Part shown: positions 20,356 through 62,639 of the stretch, piece by piece
How the letters are laid out: each line of letters opens with the position of its first letter
Position numbering within the stretch: position 1 is the stretch's first letter
Origin: Sipunculus nudus
Lineage: Eukaryota; Annelida; Sipuncula; Golfingiida; Sipunculidae
DNA: 64,000 nt
Reading direction: 5' to 3'
Assembly (NCBI GenBank): GCA_026874595.1
Contig: CM049320.1
Coordinates: 21,835,714-21,899,713, forward strand
Translations under genes and position numbers: made by a program
The notes under the pieces: model-generated
What the model was told of the DNA's origin: nothing
The model's database searches: none
The model's input: only the letters and a program-made list of their open reading frames with translations

Positions 20356-20361
20356 GAACAA

Positions 20362-22095
20362 CTAGATATTTCTTGGCACCGCAGGTGCCATAGAATCTCC
20401 AGAAAATTAATCTCTCCCCTTTAAGAATAGGCCCCCATGTTCAGCAGCATATACTGACACTTTGCAAGCGACTACGGTTTCTTCAATCTTTCAACTTGAA
20501 AAATAAAATTTTTCCCCCAATATGGGGGCCAATTAGTGAATCACTCTTGAGTAGAGGGGATTAATTTATACTAAAAAAATAGTAAGGTAGGTTGAGCCAC
20601 CTGTCTGGTTGAAGAGAAATCTCTCTAAGATAGATGTACGTGCTAAATTGCAGACCAACACATAGAAGGACTCCTCAGATATGAGCAATTTTCACCAATA
20701 ACAAATGTACAGATGGACACCACAAAAAAATGGCAGATGGCGCCAGCCACGCCACCAGTTTTGAGTAAAAGATGGAGGAGGACAAGATCTATGTACAAGC
20801 ATAGTTTCAGACCAATAAAGCACAACACTCCTAAGAAAAGAGCATTAATTTATTTTACGGAAACAGAAAGGTAGGAGGTGCCACCTGTCTGGCTAACGAC
20901 AAAATTTTCAAAGATGGATAGACATGCCAAATTTCAGACCAATACCTTGGCCCACTCCGCAGATATGAGCAATTTTCACCAGAAGCGCATGTACAGATGG
21001 ACGCCACAGCAAAACGATTGCAGATGGCGCCACAAGTCTTGAGTACAACATGGAGGAGTCCAAGATGTATGGATATGCACAATTTCAGGCCAATAGAGCA
21101 AATCACTTCTAAGAAAAGGGCATTAATTTATCCCAAAGAAGGGAAGGTAGGTGGCGCCACCTGTCTGGTTTATGAGAAAACTTTAAAAGATGGATGGACA
21201 TGTCAAATTTCAGAACAATACCTTGAACCACTCAGGAGATATGAGCAATTTTCACCGAAAGCAAATGTACGGATGGACGCAACACAATTACAATTGCAGA
21301 TAGCGCAACGAGGCTTAAATACAAGATGGAGGTATCCAAGATCAAGGGACATGCACAATTTCAGCCCAAACTGTCCATTAGTTTTAGATTTATACTAGTC
21401 AAAGTACTGTTAAGTGGCAATGATGGAGTATTTAAGGAGCGAAAACAAGTAAAAGGACAGAAGATGGCGTCACCTGTCTTCCGCAGAAGACAGATCTATC
21501 CAAGATCTTCGGTCAATTTGATTTTTAGACCAATCCATGAATCCCTTATAGAGATAATTATGATTCTGTGTGATTTTCATCACATATAGCAATATTCAAG
21601 GTCAAGGCCACTCTCATAGGAAAAGTCATGTCCCCAATCTAATATACATCATTCCATACCCCATGTCTATGTATATGCATAATATGAAAGAAATCTGTCC
21701 ATTAGTTTATGACTTATAATGCTCACAGTACTGTTTAGTGGCAATGATAGGGGTGTTAAACAGCACGAAAACAAAAAAAGGATAACAGGTGACGCCAGCA
21801 GTTTCCGGTACATGACAACATTATCCAAGATCTTTGGTCAAGATGTTTTTTTTGGATCAATCCAGGCAACATTTCTTTAGATATTTAAGAATTTGTGTGA
21901 TTTTCCCCCAAAATTGACCTTTTCAAGGTCAAGGTCACTCTTTTAGTGAAGGTCATGACCCCATTTTAAATAGGCTTTCTCCTCTCACCAAGTTTTGTAT
22001 TTTATGTATAGATCCGTAAAATATTTTTTTTTGAGTTTTCGGGTCCAGACGAAATCTCTGCGGCGGCGACGGCGCGACCGTGCCTAAACAATAGT
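20362..22095 (-). mobile_element. Non-autonomous Helitron-like (pearl/HINE-type) element with tandem core
   Basis: Read on the minus strand, the 3' end is a hairpin GGCACCTGCGGTGCC (20389-20375), then nine bases, then CTAG (20365-20362), the same end as the element at 58801-61411. Inside, alternating 140-bp monomers ('GCCACCTGTCTGG' type and 'GCCACCAGTTTTGAG' type) start near 20597, 20752, 20879, 21027, 21158 and 21306, giving dimers of about 280 bp. The 5' part (21450-22090) matches the 5' part of the 58.8-kb element, including AGGTCAAGGTCACTC and a GGCGGCGACGGCG tract. The classification is inferred from the hairpin/CTAG end and tandem core. No Rep/helicase is present. Confidence 0.6.
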
Positions 22096-29579: not shown

Positions 29580-31340
29580 CAAAGGAGACAGTATAAAAAA
29601 AACCTTTAAAACAATGTGGATTGCAGAATGACATATGTCAGACCAAAGATCAAGCAAACAGGAGAAATTGTCAACACCAGAAGAACAGACAGACATAATG
29701 ACAGACTGACACAACCTGGATGACAGTTGACCGGACCTCGTAATGTCAACGGGTAAATGCATAGACGAATAAAATGAGCTATAGTTTGAGTAGATAGGAC
29801 AATATTTGACGAAGTTATGAGCAAAATAAGATTTTTTTGGGTTTTTCAGTGACCTTGACCTTTGACCTGTTAACTAAAAACCAAAAGCTAAAAGGAGTTT
29901 TGTTTTTTAATCAACTAAATAATTTTCAGAGCGATTGCTTGAGAATTGTGGCCTGTATAGTGAAAAAAATGTGAAATATCTCGTTTGACAAGATTTCACA
30001 AAACTGACCCAATGGCGCCTAAGCAAAAATCTAGACATCTCTTATTTTAATAGTGACAAACTTATTTTGGAATATCATTCAATCCCCCCCCCCCCCTATA
30101 GATAACCATGGTAACAGTAGATTGAGACAGCTTCACATCAAAAGAAAGGCCATAGAATGGCAGGTAAAATAAGCTACAGTTATGCAACTACGATAAAATT
30201 TTACGAAGATATGAATAAACATATATTTTGCGGTTTTTATGACTTTGACTTTTGACATATTGATACTTAAAGACATCAGTGTTCTGCATCTTTACGGGTT
30301 CTATCACCATTGTAATATTCAGAGGGATTGCTAAAATATTAATGCCTGTGGAATAACATTATCAGACGAAAGCACAAACAGAAAGGCGAACTAGACGGCA
30401 ACTAGCAAACAAACGGATATACTGACACATCCGAGATGACAGATGACAGTTAAAAGACAGAGGAACAAAATGAGCTCTAGTTTATGTAGATAGACCTCTT
30501 TTTGACGAAGTTATGACGAAAATAATATTTCGAAATTTTTCGCTGACCTTGACCTTTGACAGATATTGACCGAAAACAATAGGCTTCTGTGACTTTAGGT
30601 TTTCTATCAACCGTGAAAGTTTGTAAGTGATCACTGTGCCTTGTAGAGTGGAGACAGACAGACAAACAAACAGACTAGACGACAAAGGTCGAGCGCTTGC
30701 CGGAAATGATGTGGAAACAGTCTAATGAATGGGCAATGCAGAAAAGGAAGAATATGAGCCATAGTTTGTGAAGAAAGGAGCAAATTAACAAATAATTAGG
30801 GAAATTAGATTTGGGCATATTCTAATGAATATTGACCTTGAACTTTTTTATGTTAAAGTTACAAAGTGATTTCTGCAAAGCTTTGGCCTGTTGAATGTTA
30901 ATTAATTATAAACTTATTTATTTTACATGGATTGTACAAATAGTTATTATAACTAATCGAGGCACTCTCCATGGCTCCGGTGATGGCGTAGGGTAGTCTA
31001 CAAGGGTGGAGGAAACCGGAGTACCCGGAGAAAACCACCGGCCTCGGACGGGCAACTACTACCCACTCTCATAGCCACGCCGGGGATCAGTCCCAGGTCG
31101 CCAGCGGGGAGAGCCAAGCGTTTTACCACTCAGCTGTCCAGGTTGTTATATGTAAGACGGAAGAAATAGCAAGAACGCAAAATGGAGGACAATTGACAAA
31201 CAGACAAACATACGGACAAGGTGACACAAAGTTGAGGGCAGTTGGCTAGACCAGGTCATGTAAAACACAAAGGGGAAGAGAATAAGTTGTGAAATAGGAC
31301 CAATATTGACGAAGTTATGAGGGAAATGGTGCCCATGAGG
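29580..31340. repeat. Degenerate tandem array, unit about 290-390 bp
   Basis: The phrase 'ATGAGCTATAGTTT…TTTGACGAAGTTATGA' followed by 'TGACCTTGACCTTTGAC' and a run of ACAGACAGAC recurs near 29772, 30164, 30470, 30755 and 31280, with increasing divergence. One unit is interrupted by a SINE (30890-31147). Non-coding. Confidence 0.6.
30890..31147 (-). mobile_element. tRNA-derived SINE, second family, near full length
   Basis: Read on the minus strand it starts at a tRNA-like head (GACAGCTGAGTGGTAAAACG, an A box) and runs through GGTGGTTTTCTCCGGGTACT, GAGCCATGGAGAGTGCCTCG and the tail TGTACAATCCATGTAAAATA. Head and tail occur separately at 44486/46791, and the tail alone at 57890. It sits inside the 29.6-31.3 kb tandem array and therefore inserted later than the array formed. 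Confidence 0.75.
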
Positions 31341-32727: not shown

Positions 32728-33633
32728 TTATTTGAAATCATTAGTTTTATTAGTTGTTAACAACCAGTTGTCCACAGCCTTGCTGATGGTATCTAGCGAC
32801 ATCTGTGGGAAAGTTTCATAAATAGCCTTCTTCAGCGCTTCAGCGTCCGGCAGCTTGTGTGCGACAAGTTTATGAGTAACTGGATCCTCTACTAGTTTAT
32901 TGAAATCTTTGAAGCCCTCTGCTTTACCTTCCGGAAACCAAATAGCCCGTAAGCTAAAGTGAAACGGAGTTGCGTCGGGTGAGTTATAAACCTTTTCCAT
33001 CCAAGCTTCGTAATCTTCTAATCTTCCTGGTGTCAGGCAAACATCGTACCAACGACGCCAATCACCAATCAGATCTTGCCGTGGTACATTTGGAAGCAAC
33101 GGTCGGAGTTCACCTCTCCTGTGCATTCTCCAAACCCTTCCTTCTCTCCATAAATATTTGTATTCCAAGAAAGACTCTTCATAAACCTTGGACTCCTTGT
33201 CTGGTTCGAAATCTACCGGAATGGCTTGGAAACTTGGATACCCAACACCACCTTCTACTATATACAAGTCGCCTTCCTTGGCCACGTTTCTGACTATACT
33301 TATCATATGGTTGTTTGGGGTGGATATGGACGATATGGTAAAGTTGATATCGTAGCCCAGCGCCTTTAACAACCAGCAGAGGAAGACGTTTACGGTGTAA
33401 CAGAGTCCCCCGCGACCGGCAAACATAGATTCTTTGATTTCTTCATGTGTTGGGATGTGACGGTCAGCTGGTTTTCTGCTTAACAAATCCAAATTGTTAA
33501 ATGGGTTCTTCTGGTAATGTCTGTATATAATTTTGTTTAGAAGTTCCAGTTTATTTTCCTTGAACTCTGACTCATATGACGGGATATCGAGTACGTGCCT
33601 CAGGAAATCGTCTGCTTCTTGTAACGTAACCAT
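32728..33633 (-). CDS. Arylamine N-acetyltransferase (NAT family), intronless coding region
   Basis: A 301-residue protein that would transfer acetyl from acetyl-CoA to arylamines or related amines via a Cys-His-Asp triad in the cytosol (known for the family, about 290 residues). Visible signatures are FAGRGGLCYTVN with the catalytic Cys78 in the RGGxC motif, and the His in TPNNHMISIV (His109). The third position reads YIVEGGVGYPS, so Glu127 replaces the Asp of the canonical VDxGFG motif. The whole coding sequence is one exon. An acceptor, TTTTCTTTGTAG, sits five bases before the ATG, implying a spliced 5' non-coding exon, as in vertebrate NAT genes. The substrate is unknown. The Asp-to-Glu change could alter or lower activity, or the triad may work with Glu. 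Family assignment is strong. Confidence 0.92.
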   Translation of the reverse strand: MVTLQEADDFLRHVLDIPSYESEFKENKLELLNKIIYRHYQKNPFNNLDLLSRKPADRHIPTHEEIKESMFAGRGGLCYTVNVFLCWLLKALGYDINFTISSISTPNNHMISIVRNVAKEGDLYIVEGGVGYPSFQAIPVDFEPDKESKVYEESFLEYKYLWREGRVWRMHRRGELRPLLPNVPRQDLIGDWRRWYDVCLTPGRLEDYEAWMEKVYNSPDATPFHFSLRAIWFPEGKAEGFKDFNKLVEDPVTHKLVAHKLPDAEALKKAIYETFPQMSLDTISKAVDNWLLTTNKTNDFK

Positions 33634-33639
33634 TTCAGC

Positions 33640-34845
33640 TACAAAGAAAATAATACAATGCTATGAACTTCCTGGATAATGTAAAATTTCATGTTATAAT
33701 AATGAAAATAAAACGCTTAAGAATATCAAATACACTATCGGACAAGAGAGGAAACTTTGCTATGGAACACTTTTTTAAAATGGCCCGGTAATATATCTGC
33801 ATATTATACATTCACCTTTGACCTTGATATATCACATTCACGATTGCACGCCATAAACGTCTGCATATATGTGTCAGAAGAGATGAATTTCAGTTTTTCA
33901 TTTTTAGAAATACTGGAATAAAAGAGAAAGCTGGATGGCTGGAGGGCTTGTATGGAAAATGTACATATTTCTGTCTGCCAAGACAACGAGAAAGTTAACA
34001 GGTGCAGTTTGAAAGATATATAAATAAAATATACATAAAATACCGGGACCCTTTTTGGAGAATAGTCCATTTAAGTGAAGCCAGGTGCAAATTGAGTCGT
34101 ACGTCCTGTTCAGGGTATCTGGTAACATTCCGAGAAAGTGAACATGAATGTGAACATGAACTACCTGATCGAAATAAATGAAGACTGACGGTCCTACCCA
34201 GATAGTAGTGTCCACATGAAGTAAAATTCTCATGTGCATTGTCCCTAAAAACGTCTTAATTGCCGCAAGCAGAACTATTTAATGCAATATAGAGGACAAA
34301 GCGGTCAAGTTTTTTTTTCTGATCCTGGGGCGAAATGTGGTTGTTTGCAGATCAACACCTGATCAGGCACACTCGTACATTACAACTTTTTAAAACCCTT
34401 ATCAACAAAACTTGACATGCTGTAAAATTTGATTGAAAAAATTTGGCTTCGGAAAAAATAGAGCAAGGAGGCTTGGAGGCCGAAAAAAAAATTATATTTC
34501 GCATGAAATACAAGCTCCGCAAAAATAAGGGAGATCTTCATACGCTTTCCCTTAATTCAGTGAAAATACATTTATTTCAATACGATTTCCAATTTCACTG
34601 GCTAAAGTGAAAAGATTAAAGTTTTTTCAGCAGCTATGTCAAACCACAGCTTATGGATAAAACATCTTCGGAATTATGTCAAGGTGAAAAATAAATATCC
34701 ATTGCAAATCTATGACCTTAAACTAATATCGTGCCCAAAAGTTTTAGATGCGGGAGTCAAAACTGATACGCGCGTCCTGAACCCAGCTGTTTTTTTTATC
34801 TCACATGAGAAATTATTTACTCCTGAGAAATTTATTTAAAAAATT
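33640..34845. other. Upstream region of the NAT gene, no other gene seen
   Basis: It probably contains the NAT 5' non-coding exon and promoter, which I cannot place. Frames of up to 111 codons lack coding character. Confidence 0.35.
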
Positions 34846-57966: not shown

Positions 57967-58800
57967 GCACAACTGGTCATTATGACCACAATTACATAAC
58001 AACTGACCCAAGTTTACCCTGACCATATAAGGCACAGCCCAGGGGATAAGAGTCAAAAACACTACTGGTCTGGTACTGCCAACCAGAGACACTATATATG
58101 ATGTATATAGTAATTAATACACTATGCAACAATGCACAGCCACACTGTTTAGATGAATAGCAGTCTAAAAAAATGAGGAAGCATTTATTTTGTACACTTG
58201 TATGATTATGTCAGATAGGAGTTCGGCATGTACTCAAGGCTCGAAATTCTTTGAAATTTTCACCTTTCGAATGGAAAGGCATTAATACAGTTTTTTGCCC
58301 TTCTGCAAAAAATAGGCTTCCCACTAAAGATGCATCCTACCATCATAACAAACTTTCAGTCACAGTTCCTTCAGTGTAAACCTAATTCTGTCATCTTACA
58401 TGCCATCCTGCATGCACACTTGTGGCCAAAAAGAACTGAATGTTTTCAATACTAGAAGTATACACTGTTATATCAGAAACAAGATTTTGCAGTGAAACAA
58501 AATGAGAAAATATAAGAGATGAGGGCCTAAATACTGGAGAATATAAGGAATAATATACCATTTTGTAGGAAAATATAGGAAATAAAGGGAATACGTTGAA
58601 CACCACCTGTAAAATATTTGGTTTTTGTGTCATGCCTGTAACCTATCAGCTACTCAGGGTTGGGCAAAACCTGGGTTTTAAGCATTAAGCCTAGCCCAGT
58701 GGGTTTTTCTGGGTAAACCCGGGTTTTATGGGTTTTACAGGTTTTATGGGTAATTTGATGTCAATTTGAAATTGAATATAATTTTATGCAGTGGTAATTG

Positions 58801-61411
58801 TATCCCCAGACAAAGTCGGGGGATACTATGTTTTCATACCGGTCCCGCCGCCGACGCCGCCGCCGCATATAAATCTTGTTGGCGCGATAACCCAAAAAAT
58901 ATTTCACGGAACTTTACCAAACTTGGTATATGTATAGATATGGGTAAGAGGACGACGCCTATTTAAAATGAGGTCATGACCTTTACTAGGAGAGTGTCCT
59001 TGACCTTGAATAGGTCCAATTTTGGGGAAAATCACACAAATTCTTTAATATCTCAAGAAATCTTGCATGGATTTATCCCAAAATCAACTTGATGGAAGAT
59101 CATGGATAGGGTTGTCATGTTCGAGAAACTGGTGGCGCCACCTATTATTCTTTACTTGTTTTCATGCCGTTTAATACCCCCAAAATTGCCACCTTACAGT
59201 ACTGTGAGCATTATAAGTCAAAAACTAATGGACAGATTTCTTTTATATTATGCATATACATAGGTATGGGTTATGGGATGATGTTAATTTAAATTGGGGT
59301 CATGACCTTTCCTATGATAGTGGCCTTGACCTTGAATATTGCCATATATGGTGAAAATCACACACCTCTTTTGATATCTCCAGTGTTGATAGCCATATGG
59401 ATTTCAAAAATGACTTATGTATGGCCCACCACTAAAGTAAGAACCCTATAGGTTCTAGGGTCATGAGGTCAAAGGTCAAGGTCACTGGACTGGCATTTTA
59501 AAAGATACTGTGGATGCATTTTAAGCCAAACTTTCATCCCAGGTCTTCCATCTTGAATATATAGCTCACTTGCCAATAGTGGATGATCCATATAAATTTT
59601 GGGGTCACAAGGTCAAAGGTCAAGGCCACAGGAGCTATCTGTCCAAAATTTAGTTTCTGGATGATAATTCCTGTTTTTATTTATGCATTGATTTCAAATT
59701 TGACTTATATATGTCCCATTGAAAAAGCAAGACCCATATTGATTTTGGGGGTCATGAGGTCAAAGGTCAAGGTCACATGACTCTTCTTTAAAAAGATTGT
59801 GGATGCATTTTCCGCCAAACATTTCATCTCAGACCTTTCATCTTGCACATATAAGTCATCTGCCAATAGAGGAAGACCCCTATCAGTTTTGAGGTCACAA
59901 GGTCAAAGGTGAAGGTCACAGGAGCCATCTGTCCAAAAATTAGTTTCTGGATGATAATTCCTTCTTTTTTTGATGTATGGATTTCAAACTTGACTTGTAT
60001 TTGACCCATTGGAAAAGCAAGACCATAATTGATTTTGGGGTCATGAGGTCAAAGGTCAAGGTCACAGGAAACCTCTTTTAAAAGGTTGTGGATGCAATTT
60101 CAGCCAAATAATTCATCCAAGATCTTTCATCTTGCACATATAGTTCACCTGCTAAGAGTGGAAGACCCCTATCAATTTTGAGGTCACAAGGTCAAAGGTG
60201 AAGGTCACAGGAGCCATCTGTCCAAAAATTAGTTTCTGGATGATAATTCCTGCTTTTATTGATGTATGGATTTCAAACTTGACCTGTATATGTCCCATTG
60301 GAAAAGCAAGACCTAAATTGATTTTGGGGTCATGAGGTCAAAGGTCAAGGTCACAGGACACATCTTTAAAAAGATGTGTATGCATTTTCAGCCAAACATT
60401 TCATCTCAGATCTTTCATCTTGCACATATAGTTCACCTGCCAAGAGAGGAATAACCCTATCAATTTTGAGGTCACAAGGTCAAAGGTGAAGGTCACAGGA
60501 GCCATCTGTCCAAAAATTAGTTTCTGGATGATAATTCCTTCTTTTATTTATGTATGGATTTCAAACTTTACTTGAATTTGACCCATTGGAAAAGCAAGAC
60601 CCGAATTGATTTTGGGGTCATGAGGTCAAAGGTCAAGGTCACAGGACACATCTTTATAAAGATTGTGGATGCATTTTCAGCCAAACAATTCATCTCAGAT
60701 CTATCATCTTGCACATATAGTTCACCTGCCAAGAGTGAAAAACCCCTATCAATTTTGAGGTCACAAGGTCAAAGGTGAAGGTCACAGGAGCCATCTGTCC
60801 AAAAATTAGTTTCTGGATGATAATTCCTGCTTTTATTGATGTATGGTTTTCAAACTTGACTTGTATATATCCCATTGGAAAAGCAAGACCAAAATTGATT
60901 TCGGGGTCATGAGGTCAAAGGTCAAGATCACAGGACACATTTTTAAAAAGATGTGGATGCATTTTCAGCCAAACATTTCATCTCAGATCTTCCATCTTGC
61001 ACATATAGTTCTCCTGCCAAGAGAGGAAGAAAACTATCAATTTAAGGTCACAAGGTCAAAGGTGAAGGTCACAGGAGCCACCTGTAAAAAAAATTAGTTT
61101 CTGGATGATCATTCCTGCTTTATTGATGTATAGATTTCAAACTTGACTTGCATATGTCCCATTGGAAAAGCAAGACCCAAATTGATTTTGGGGTCATGAG
61201 GTCAAAGGTCAAGGTCACAGGACACATCTCTAAAAAGATCAAGGTCACAGGACCAACATCTTCAACAAGATTGTGGATTGTTAGATGGAAGAAACAATAA
61301 ATATGCGAAGTGTCAGTATATGCTGCTAAAAATGGGTCTGTTCTTAAAGGGGGGGGGGGGGCTACTATGTCTGGGGATACTCTGGCACCTGCGGTGCCAA
61401 GAAATGTCTAG
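58801..61411 (+). mobile_element. Helitron-like (pearl/HINE-type) element nested in the hAT-like element
   Basis: It begins TATCCCCAGACAAAGTCGGG, itself a short palindrome, followed by a CCGCCGCCGACGCC tract. It ends with the hairpin GGCACCTGCGGTGCC (61384-61398), then nine bases and CTAG (61408-61411). The same 5' region and the same 3' end occur in reverse at 20362-22095. Helitron-like elements with tandem cores are well known from bivalves. No Rep/helicase present. Confidence 0.65.
59440..61230 (+). repeat. 289-bp tandem repeat, about 6 copies, with DR1 nuclear-receptor-like sites
   Basis: The period is 287-291 bp, measured from the motif AGGTCAAAGGTCA at 59466, 59757, 60046, 60335, 60623, 60912 and 61199. 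Each unit has a second site half-way (59610, 59900, 60189, 60477, 60766, 61053), mostly AGGTCAAAGGTGA. So there are two diverged half-units of about 144 bp. The later units are much more alike than the early ones. Several minus-strand open frames here are by-products. Confidence 0.85.
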
Positions 61412-62639
61412 TTATGATTCTGTGCTTAATATTTTGTTTATATAAAATAATATCAATAGCAGTGTCTGATATGAAATACTCAACACATAAGGCAATTATT
61501 TGTGATACACTTAACTGAAAAAGAAAGAGAAAATAATCATGAGTCTTTGGACAAGTGCTGTGAAGACATAGAGTTCTCATACCTCAGCCCATCATTTCAC
61601 ATTTTTTCAGGACTTTTTCAGTTAAACTTTGATAGTGGATTACTTTGTGGGTGTATAGACAAACTGATGTGGAAGTGGCTCCTGGCAACCGAAAACTGGC
61701 TACTTGAAATCATTTTAATTTGGATATTTTTTTTCCCGGTTTGAACTTAAAATGTAGCATGGTCTTTTACAGTAACTTCATTTACACTGTTAATTACAGA
61801 TATTATATCAGCATACTTTTACTTGTAGTAGGTGTAAACAAAAATAAAAAATATATACATGAGACTTCATAGATACATAATTCAGTAATCATCTGCATCA
61901 TATGGGTACCATTATTCCACTCTGATGATAATGATGATCAAGCGCAGGCTGACTGATATCCCTTTATCAATTACCTGCTGATTCAGCCACCCATCTTGTG
62001 CAGTGCACACCCCAGCCACAGCCTCTTTTGTTGGTTACCAGTATTTATGGCCAGGTTAAAGGAGGTCTTGTGCACTTTTAATTGTTAGCAAATGTCCAGA
62101 TGCAGATATCAGTAAGTTACATGATGAGTGGGAAGGGGATTCCTCAGTCACCTTGATGCAATTAAAATATCTTCTGTCAGTGTCAGGCTATCATGACTGG
62201 CTAGCCCTAATGTTTCTCCTTTGTCAATGCACCTTGCAATTGTCTAGTCATATGTGCTGAATGGGGCCACAATGCACATTATTAAAGTAAGACACACTGA
62301 CTGGGAAAAAGAAGGCTTCAAAGCTGATGAATTCCATAGGGCTCTGATAAGTAACTTTTAATTCCATTTAAATTCACTTTTATGTACAGATTTTGATTGA
62401 TTCTTTACAATTCAGTCACATGTAACCAGTAATACTAATCTGTTAATATATGACAGGATTTCCTAATAATTATTACACTACTTTATACTTTGGGTATTAT
62501 ATATATACATAAAGTCCATATCATATTGCCCATAAAACCCACCATAAAACCCACATGTGGGTTTTAACACTTATTTCCCGCCCAGGTAATCAGGAGTATT
62601 ACCTGCCCGGGTTTACCCGCCCAACCCTGCATCTACTAA

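Follow-up and report, generated by a model that had tools for sequence, protein, structure and literature searches.

A non-autonomous Helentron of Sipunculus nudus carries a satellite-like array of nuclear-receptor-type half-sites

A satellite-like array of DR1 motifs in the genome of Sipunculus nudus is the cargo of a non-autonomous Helentron (HINE), which was delimited within the 64,000 nucleotides of contig CM049320.1 analyzed here (the window, from whose first base all positions are counted unless a locus is named). The central array of this HINE repeats a cassette of four half-sites in DR2-DR1-DR0 arrangement. Our best explanation, to which we assign a probability of roughly 0.45, is that the cassette is bound by host nuclear receptors and has been favored in the element for that reason. 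The features of the element and of a sister element in the same window are as follows.

58800-61413, plus strand: whole element, a HINE of 2,614 bp, beginning with GTATCC after TT and ending with CTAGTT, ends that are repeated in other genomic copies
58800-58811, plus strand: 5' subterminal inverted repeat (subTIR) GTATCCCCAGAC, complementary at 12/12 positions to 61369-61380
58815-58826, plus strand: inverted repeat (IR) partner of the 5' subTIR, 11/12 complementary across a 3-nt gap (hairpin -9.7 kcal/mol, z = -4.55)
58845-58866, plus strand: short, imperfect CCG-type microsatellite-like segment, read by eye and absent from the TRF list
58887-59383, plus strand: left module, two diverged units (58887-59057 and 59213-59383) at an offset of 326 bp, 72% identical by alignment
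58971-58982, plus strand: IR0 or TREpal-like palindrome AGGTCATGACCT in left-module unit 1, by alignment
58998-59010, minus strand: TCAAGGTCA-type site in left-module unit 1, reading CCTTGACCTTGAA on the plus strand, by motif reading
59297-59308, plus strand: IR0-like palindrome GGGTCATGACCT in left-module unit 2, by alignment
59324-59336, minus strand: site reading CCTTGACCTTGAA on the plus strand in left-module unit 2, by motif reading
59396-61239, plus strand: central array of A and B monomers of ~144 bp in a 289-bp higher-order unit, with 13 half-site blocks, by TRF and alignments
59458-59484, plus strand: first half-site block, GGGTCA-TG-AGGTCA-A-AGGTCA-AGGTCA (DR2+DR1+DR0), read and aligned
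59466-61211, plus strand: whole span of the 13 DR1 sites, by motif scan
61369-61380, plus strand: 3' subTIR GTCTGGGGATAC, 12/12 complementary to the 5' subTIR and also present in other copies
61383-61399, plus strand: 3' palindrome TGGCACCTGCGGTGCCA, 14 bp from the element end
20360-22075, minus strand: sister element with a 276-bp array lacking DR1, having the left module (81%), the right end (80%) and the palindrome in common with the DR1 element

The anatomy is that of a HINE. The 12-bp subTIRs fall within the 11-15 bp expected at both ends, a short IR lies beside the 5' subTIR, the CCG-rich run occupies the place of the left-flank microsatellite, a palindrome is located close to the 3' end, and the element is inserted at TT without a TSD. 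TT precedes GTATCC in the window copy and in six loci of the source genome with distinct 5' flanks (L009, L036, L037, L039, L042 and L044). Both ends were recovered in one locus for the window copy, L009, L036 and L037, and no TSD was seen in them by eye. The palindrome-bearing copies L009, L036, L037 and L043 end in CTAGTT followed by differing flanks, and L033 has GTAGTT instead. A further subTIR match, in L005, has two mismatches, no TT and no other part of the element, and was taken as chance. No stop-to-stop ORF of at least 120 aa (the cut-off applied) lies inside 58800-61413, in line with the absence of coding capacity in HINEs, and neither the tRNA scan nor the Rfam gathering scan of the window gave a match.

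The 13 DR1 sites in a 289-bp array that had been reported in the first-pass annotation were recovered by motif scan and TRF. Eight are perfect (AGGTCAAAGGTCA) and five carry one changed base (AGGTCAAAGGTGA, with AGGTGA as the second half-site); all are on the plus strand, starting at 59466, 59610, 59757, 59900, 60046, 60189, 60335, 60477, 60623, 60766, 60912, 61053 and 61199. Their half-sites and spacing are those of the DR1 consensus, as expected of a nuclear-receptor response element. The same annotation had described a triple half-site, which is seen at 11 of the 13 positions, where AGGTCA directly follows DR1 (the exceptions are 59610, with AGGCCA, and 60912, with AGATCA). The block really has four half-sites, however, because RGGTCA, previously missed, is located two bases upstream of DR1 in 13/13. 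The repeated 27-bp block reads RGGTCA-nn-AGGTCA-A-AGGTSA-AGGTCA, i.e., a DR2, a DR1 and a DR0. Across the whole window, 15 DR1 sites with at most one mismatch were found against a mean of 0.09 in dinucleotide shuffles, 13 of them being tandem copies and not independent; the two outside the array, at 29856 and 33812, are both on the minus strand. Independent weight comes from these two, and from the A-to-B conservation and the genome-wide 19-mer count given below. TRF reports a period of 289 with 6.2 copies (59458-61239) and an additional 146-bp row, a sub-period, and alignments extend the start of the array to ~59396. CpG observed/expected is 0.04 in the array (59396-61239) and 0.65 in the window; the spacer difference between A and B monomers, TG versus CA, may reflect the decay of an ancestral CpG.

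The distance from DR1 to DR1 alternates within 141-147 bp, with a mean of 144.4 bp, in agreement with the regular spacing of ~144 bp noted before. Its interpretation as a sign of nucleosome phasing found no support: a test of one 289-bp unit showed no 10-bp AT-dinucleotide signal (P = 0.46), and monomers of 140-180 bp predominate in oyster HINEs according to the accessible text of PMC7492417. A classical heterochromatic satellite was rejected, since the array measures 1.8 kb and lies inside a bounded multi-copy element.

The source genome comprises 1,426,538,692 bases (1.43 Gb) in 153 contigs, and both the array motif and the element end are abundant in it. The proposed genome-wide count of DR1-bearing copies gave 22,468 exact matches to the 19-mer AGGTCAAAGGTCAAGGTCA, the triple half-site (11,219 and 11,249 on the two strands), versus 0 for a reversed-pattern control. 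The 22-base 3' end TGGCACCTGCGGTGCCAAGAAA was matched exactly 2,964 times (1,515 and 1,449; control 0). The motifs sit in a mobile element, as suggested earlier, and exist in thousands of copies. Among 100 listed places of the 2,964, 28 copies, all on contig C1, were fetched by their 3' end alone, and 27 were usable (the stretch fetched for L080 was cut short at one end). By best match, 11 of the 27 carry the DR1 array, 14 an array of the left-module IR0 (TREpal-like) type, three of these calls (L062, L078 and L084) resting on <200 bp, and two the array of the sister element. In 20 evenly placed 10-kb stretches the DR1 13-mer occurred once and the 19-mer was absent, where ~3 19-mers would be expected from the genome count; the sites are clustered.

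Among the 89 exact 19-mers with sufficient flank in the fetched loci, 68 belong to this HINE family, 20 to a second repeat family and one stands alone. The second family, whose flanks are mostly dissimilar, is present on the minus strand of the window (29850-29868 and 30544-30555, the latter a shorter form of the 19-mer), in L002-L005, in L034, where the copies are 1,269 bp apart, and in L045. The upstream flank in L034 resembles unit A (z = 4.1, 0/200 shuffles) and unit B (z = 3.2, 2/200), and the two families sharing the 19-mer may be remotely related. Besides the window, nine of 16 fetched loci contain A0, the distinctive first unit of the array, four of the nine forming one local cluster. 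At C1:1405-1422 kb (L035, L041, L042 and L043), HINE copies are embedded in a satellite made up of ~55-bp units, apparently head-to-tail; the 3' palindrome is lost between TACTCT and GTCTAGTT in L035, L041 and L042, and is kept with one mismatch in L043. Viral and bacterial collections yielded a single match to a 20-mer; the viral contig concerned (L001) has no tandem repeats, and the match was taken as chance. Three other pattern scans of these collections gave zero matches.

The left module recurs in the sister element and forms arrays in other genomic elements. It carries a second arrangement of half-sites, namely the palindrome AGGTCATGACCT, presumably the motif named TREpal, and on the opposite strand TCAAGGTCA, which we take to be an SF-1/ERR-type site. 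The stretch GAAAATCACACA, which contains no half-site, occurs unchanged in each of the four left units in the window (59027-59038, 59353-59364 and the left units of the sister element). The 5' terminal module of the sister element was not found, and homology between its array (e2) and the array of the DR1 element (e1) was not significant. The existence of a sister array without DR1, together with the two of 27 copies that carry it, indicates that DR1 is not needed for movement.

Within the window, the half-site block is more conserved than the remainder of the monomer. Between the A and B consensus sequences, 26/30 columns are kept in the block versus 58/113 outside (P = 0.002, best-window permutation, 10,000 permutations). 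The most diverged unit, A0, retains 24/24 half-site bases and 82/112 bases outside, and overall 308 of 312 half-site bases are kept, against a base-specific expectation of 285.7. Variants were then divided among genomic copies into shared variants, present in more than one copy, and singletons, present in one. A first sample comprised 147 monomers, taken from the window and from 14 of the 16 loci L030-L045, which had been located by the 19-mer and are in part local duplicates (C1:1405-1422 kb). In it, shared variants were found at 82/3485 half-site positions versus 1006/15502 flank positions, and singletons at 24/3485 versus 119/15502 (ratio test, P = 0.0007; P = 5×10−6 without three of the four cluster loci).

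Because these first loci had been found by the motif itself, the test was repeated on copies chosen by their 3' end. The first eight DR1 elements gave 9/760 versus 127/3387 for all variants (P = 0.0001), with a ratio test of P = 0.17; the first-round ratio test for the IR0 type gave P = 0.013. Eight loci were added after this first-round ratio test on DR1 elements, which brought the number of DR1 elements to 11, with 24 A and 21 B monomers. In this enlarged sample, shared variants affect 2/1066 half-site positions versus 113/4760 flank positions, and singletons 10/1066 (0.94%) versus 78/4760 (1.64%), the latter leaning to depletion (P = 0.096); the ratio test of shared against singleton variants is significant (P = 0.0054). 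For the IR0 arrays (21 units from 14 elements, with RGGTCATGACCT and CCTTGACCTTGAA as blocks), shared variants were found at 3/524 block positions versus 323/4730 flank positions and singletons at 10/524 versus 82/4730 (P = 0.73; ratio test, P = 2.8×10−5). All copies tested besides the window copy come from contig C1, and some are local duplicates.

The cassette is thus preferentially conserved among the older, shared variants. The prediction that DR1 is better conserved than other parts of the unit holds for pooled monomers (12/1066 versus 191/4760 for all variants, P = 2.6×10−7), less cleanly for B monomers separately, in which the block is not the window of lowest variation (rank 16/113 in the 3'-end-chosen sample and 21/113 in the motif-found sample). 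In the IR0 units, the 27-bp window starting from the palindrome, which includes a non-motif stretch beyond it, ranks 119/292. Since singletons are not significantly rarer in the half-sites, there is no evidence of the host keeping sites at individual insertions, although the lean to depletion among DR1 singletons weakens any claim of purely neutral decay. The pattern suggests retention of the motifs in the lineage that spread and gives no sign that single insertions are retained.

Candidate receptors are available in the source genome. Among 67 zf-C4 matches, counted exon by exon, nine were fetched and five were searched against solved structures. Four of these DNA-binding domains matched best to COUP-TF1, NR2C2, HNF4-alpha and RXR-alpha, respectively, and in the fifth RXR-alpha was barely ahead of NR2C2. 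By these matches, the genome encodes HNF4-, RXR-, COUP-TF- and NR2C-like domains, i.e., cognate receptors for such sites. HNF4 binds DR1 of the form AGGTCAxAGGTCA (PMC3252374), and a snail RXR has been reported as a DR1 binder (PMC4388693), each according to the text available. The arrays may be bound by receptors of this kind.

Under the favored explanation, the half-sites would owe their persistence in the lineage that spread to the binding of some factor. The binders of the cassette would be DR1-class host receptors (HNF4, RXR, COUP-TF or TR2/4-like, all genome-encoded), and binding in the germline or in early cells would leave the element DNA accessible or active, so that lineages retaining the cassette would be favored. 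After insertion, copies would decay with no detectable host maintenance, and the many sites remaining in the decaying copies could titrate receptors or, from time to time, be co-opted. The presence of the same 19-mer in the second repeat family, with mostly dissimilar flanks (20/89 sites), counts for this explanation. The rank of the block in B monomers, the rank of the IR0 window and the equal conservation of half-site-free GAAAATCACACA count against it, as does the DR1-free array of the sister element and of two of the 27 copies. More tentatively, and with the odds somewhat against it, a Helentron superfamily may have built satellite cargo around half-sites on more than one occasion, once as DR2-DR1-DR0 and once as IR0 with an extended half-site, each geometry being kept by lineage selection. 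If so, a transposon would depend on the hormone or metabolic receptor network of its host and would seed tens of thousands of potential sites.

The constraint on the block could also be explained with no receptor at all, if the AGGTCA block were a short internal repeat that owes its uniformity to array mechanics, such as slippage, gene conversion or use as a rearrangement motif like the CENP-B-box-like satellite motifs. The block does seem to slip, as a second-family copy (L004) has an extra 7-mer and monomer L037-1627 appears to have lost its upstream half-site; other windows in B are equally conserved; and nematode work cited in PMC7492417 concerns, by its title, conserved motifs that promote satellite rearrangement. 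However, the IR0 and opposite-strand TCAAGGTCA block, which belongs to another type of array, is likewise depleted of shared variants, and the IR0 block is a palindrome rather than a tandem hexamer. We consider such passive cargo somewhat unlikely. Binding by a replication or transposition factor (Helentron Rep/helicase, RPA or a host replication factor), with the likeness to receptor sites being incidental, would predict what was observed, a depletion of shared variants with no significant one of singletons, as expected from constraint in the spreading lineage. This is improbable given the sister elements with a DR1-free array and the proposal that the termini, i.e., subTIRs and stem loops, are what transposition requires (accessible text of PMC4067079).

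The first-pass annotation, whose interpretation is partly supported as a whole, had also raised the idea of a receptor-binding platform or decoy sponge. In a host-level form of this idea, many insertions would be kept by the host through receptor binding. Such a role would suit the sheer number of exact triple half-sites and has precedents in the MSL sites supplied by DINE-1-like elements (PMC4067079) and the HNF4 sites in Alu (PMC3252374), as far as the available texts describe them. It is nonetheless very doubtful, as the singleton rate in half-sites of the motif-found sample is close to that of the flanks, and as two of 10 aligned, position-matched A0 sequences, those of L030 and L032, have mutations in the half-sites. 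An ordinary local satellite whose motifs arose by chance, outside any mobile element, would account for the tandem array reported by TRF. It is hardly credible in view of the defined ends in several copies, the thousands of exact 3' ends and the recurrence of the distinctive first unit from copy to copy.

HINEs with central repeats are a known kind of element, and the nuclear-receptor half-site cargo is apparently new. In the accessible text of PMC7492417, Cg_HINE of Crassostrea gigas likewise has subTIRs of normally 11-12 bp with an adjacent complementary IR and a microsatellite, central satellite-like repeats mostly in the length range given above, a 3' subTIR and palindrome, and a TT preference without TSD; its group 2 likewise has related flanks around unrelated arrays. 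The term "transcription factor" is absent from its main text, and the likeness is one of anatomy. DINE-1 and HINE-Mo, as presented in the accessible text of PMC4067079, share subTIRs, an IR (DINE-1), a microsatellite, a 3' stem-loop, a TT target and the lack of coding sequence, and DINE-1-like copies supply MSL binding sites in Drosophila miranda. They differ in that, instead of half-site arrays, the sites named for them are MSL sites and, close to Cyp genes, putative transcription factor sites. In mite HINEs the distance of the subTIR from the element end is 2-4 nt on the 5' side and 38-60 bp on the 3' side, versus ~0 and 33 here. Alu elements with HNF4/RAR sites (PMC3252374, available text) are likewise high-copy mobile elements spreading DR1/DR2-type sites, but they are retrotransposons without a tandem array of four half-sites per unit. 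Neither "nuclear receptor" nor "transcription factor" occurs in the available text of PMC11136912. In the open-access literature searched, no paper joining Helentron and nuclear receptor was found, nor was the 19-mer or its reverse complement found in text; one paper there mentions Helitron, nuclear receptor and response element together.

If receptors bind the arrays, then more than 22,000 exact triple half-sites have been placed in one genome by such repeats, which would bear on how receptor networks gain and lose targets and on why transposons retain motifs for host factors. If the arrays are not bound, motif scans in such genomes would be swamped by transposon cargo.

Two further observations concern the window. 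AGRKGGCGC, which we take to be a CTCF-like core, occurs nine times in it versus 0.3 in 30 shuffles, partly inside HINEs, as found by motif scan at the following window positions.

20735, 21022, 21149, 21154, 22584, 32388, 47313, 50799 and 59135: AGRKGGCGC

Such cores were considered as the conserved block of the sister array (e2) and rejected, since its A copies vary at the cores. In addition, an open frame of 310 aa at 32731-33660 on the minus strand matches Pfam Acetyltransf_2 (arylamine N-acetyltransferase) with E = 7.6×10−19.
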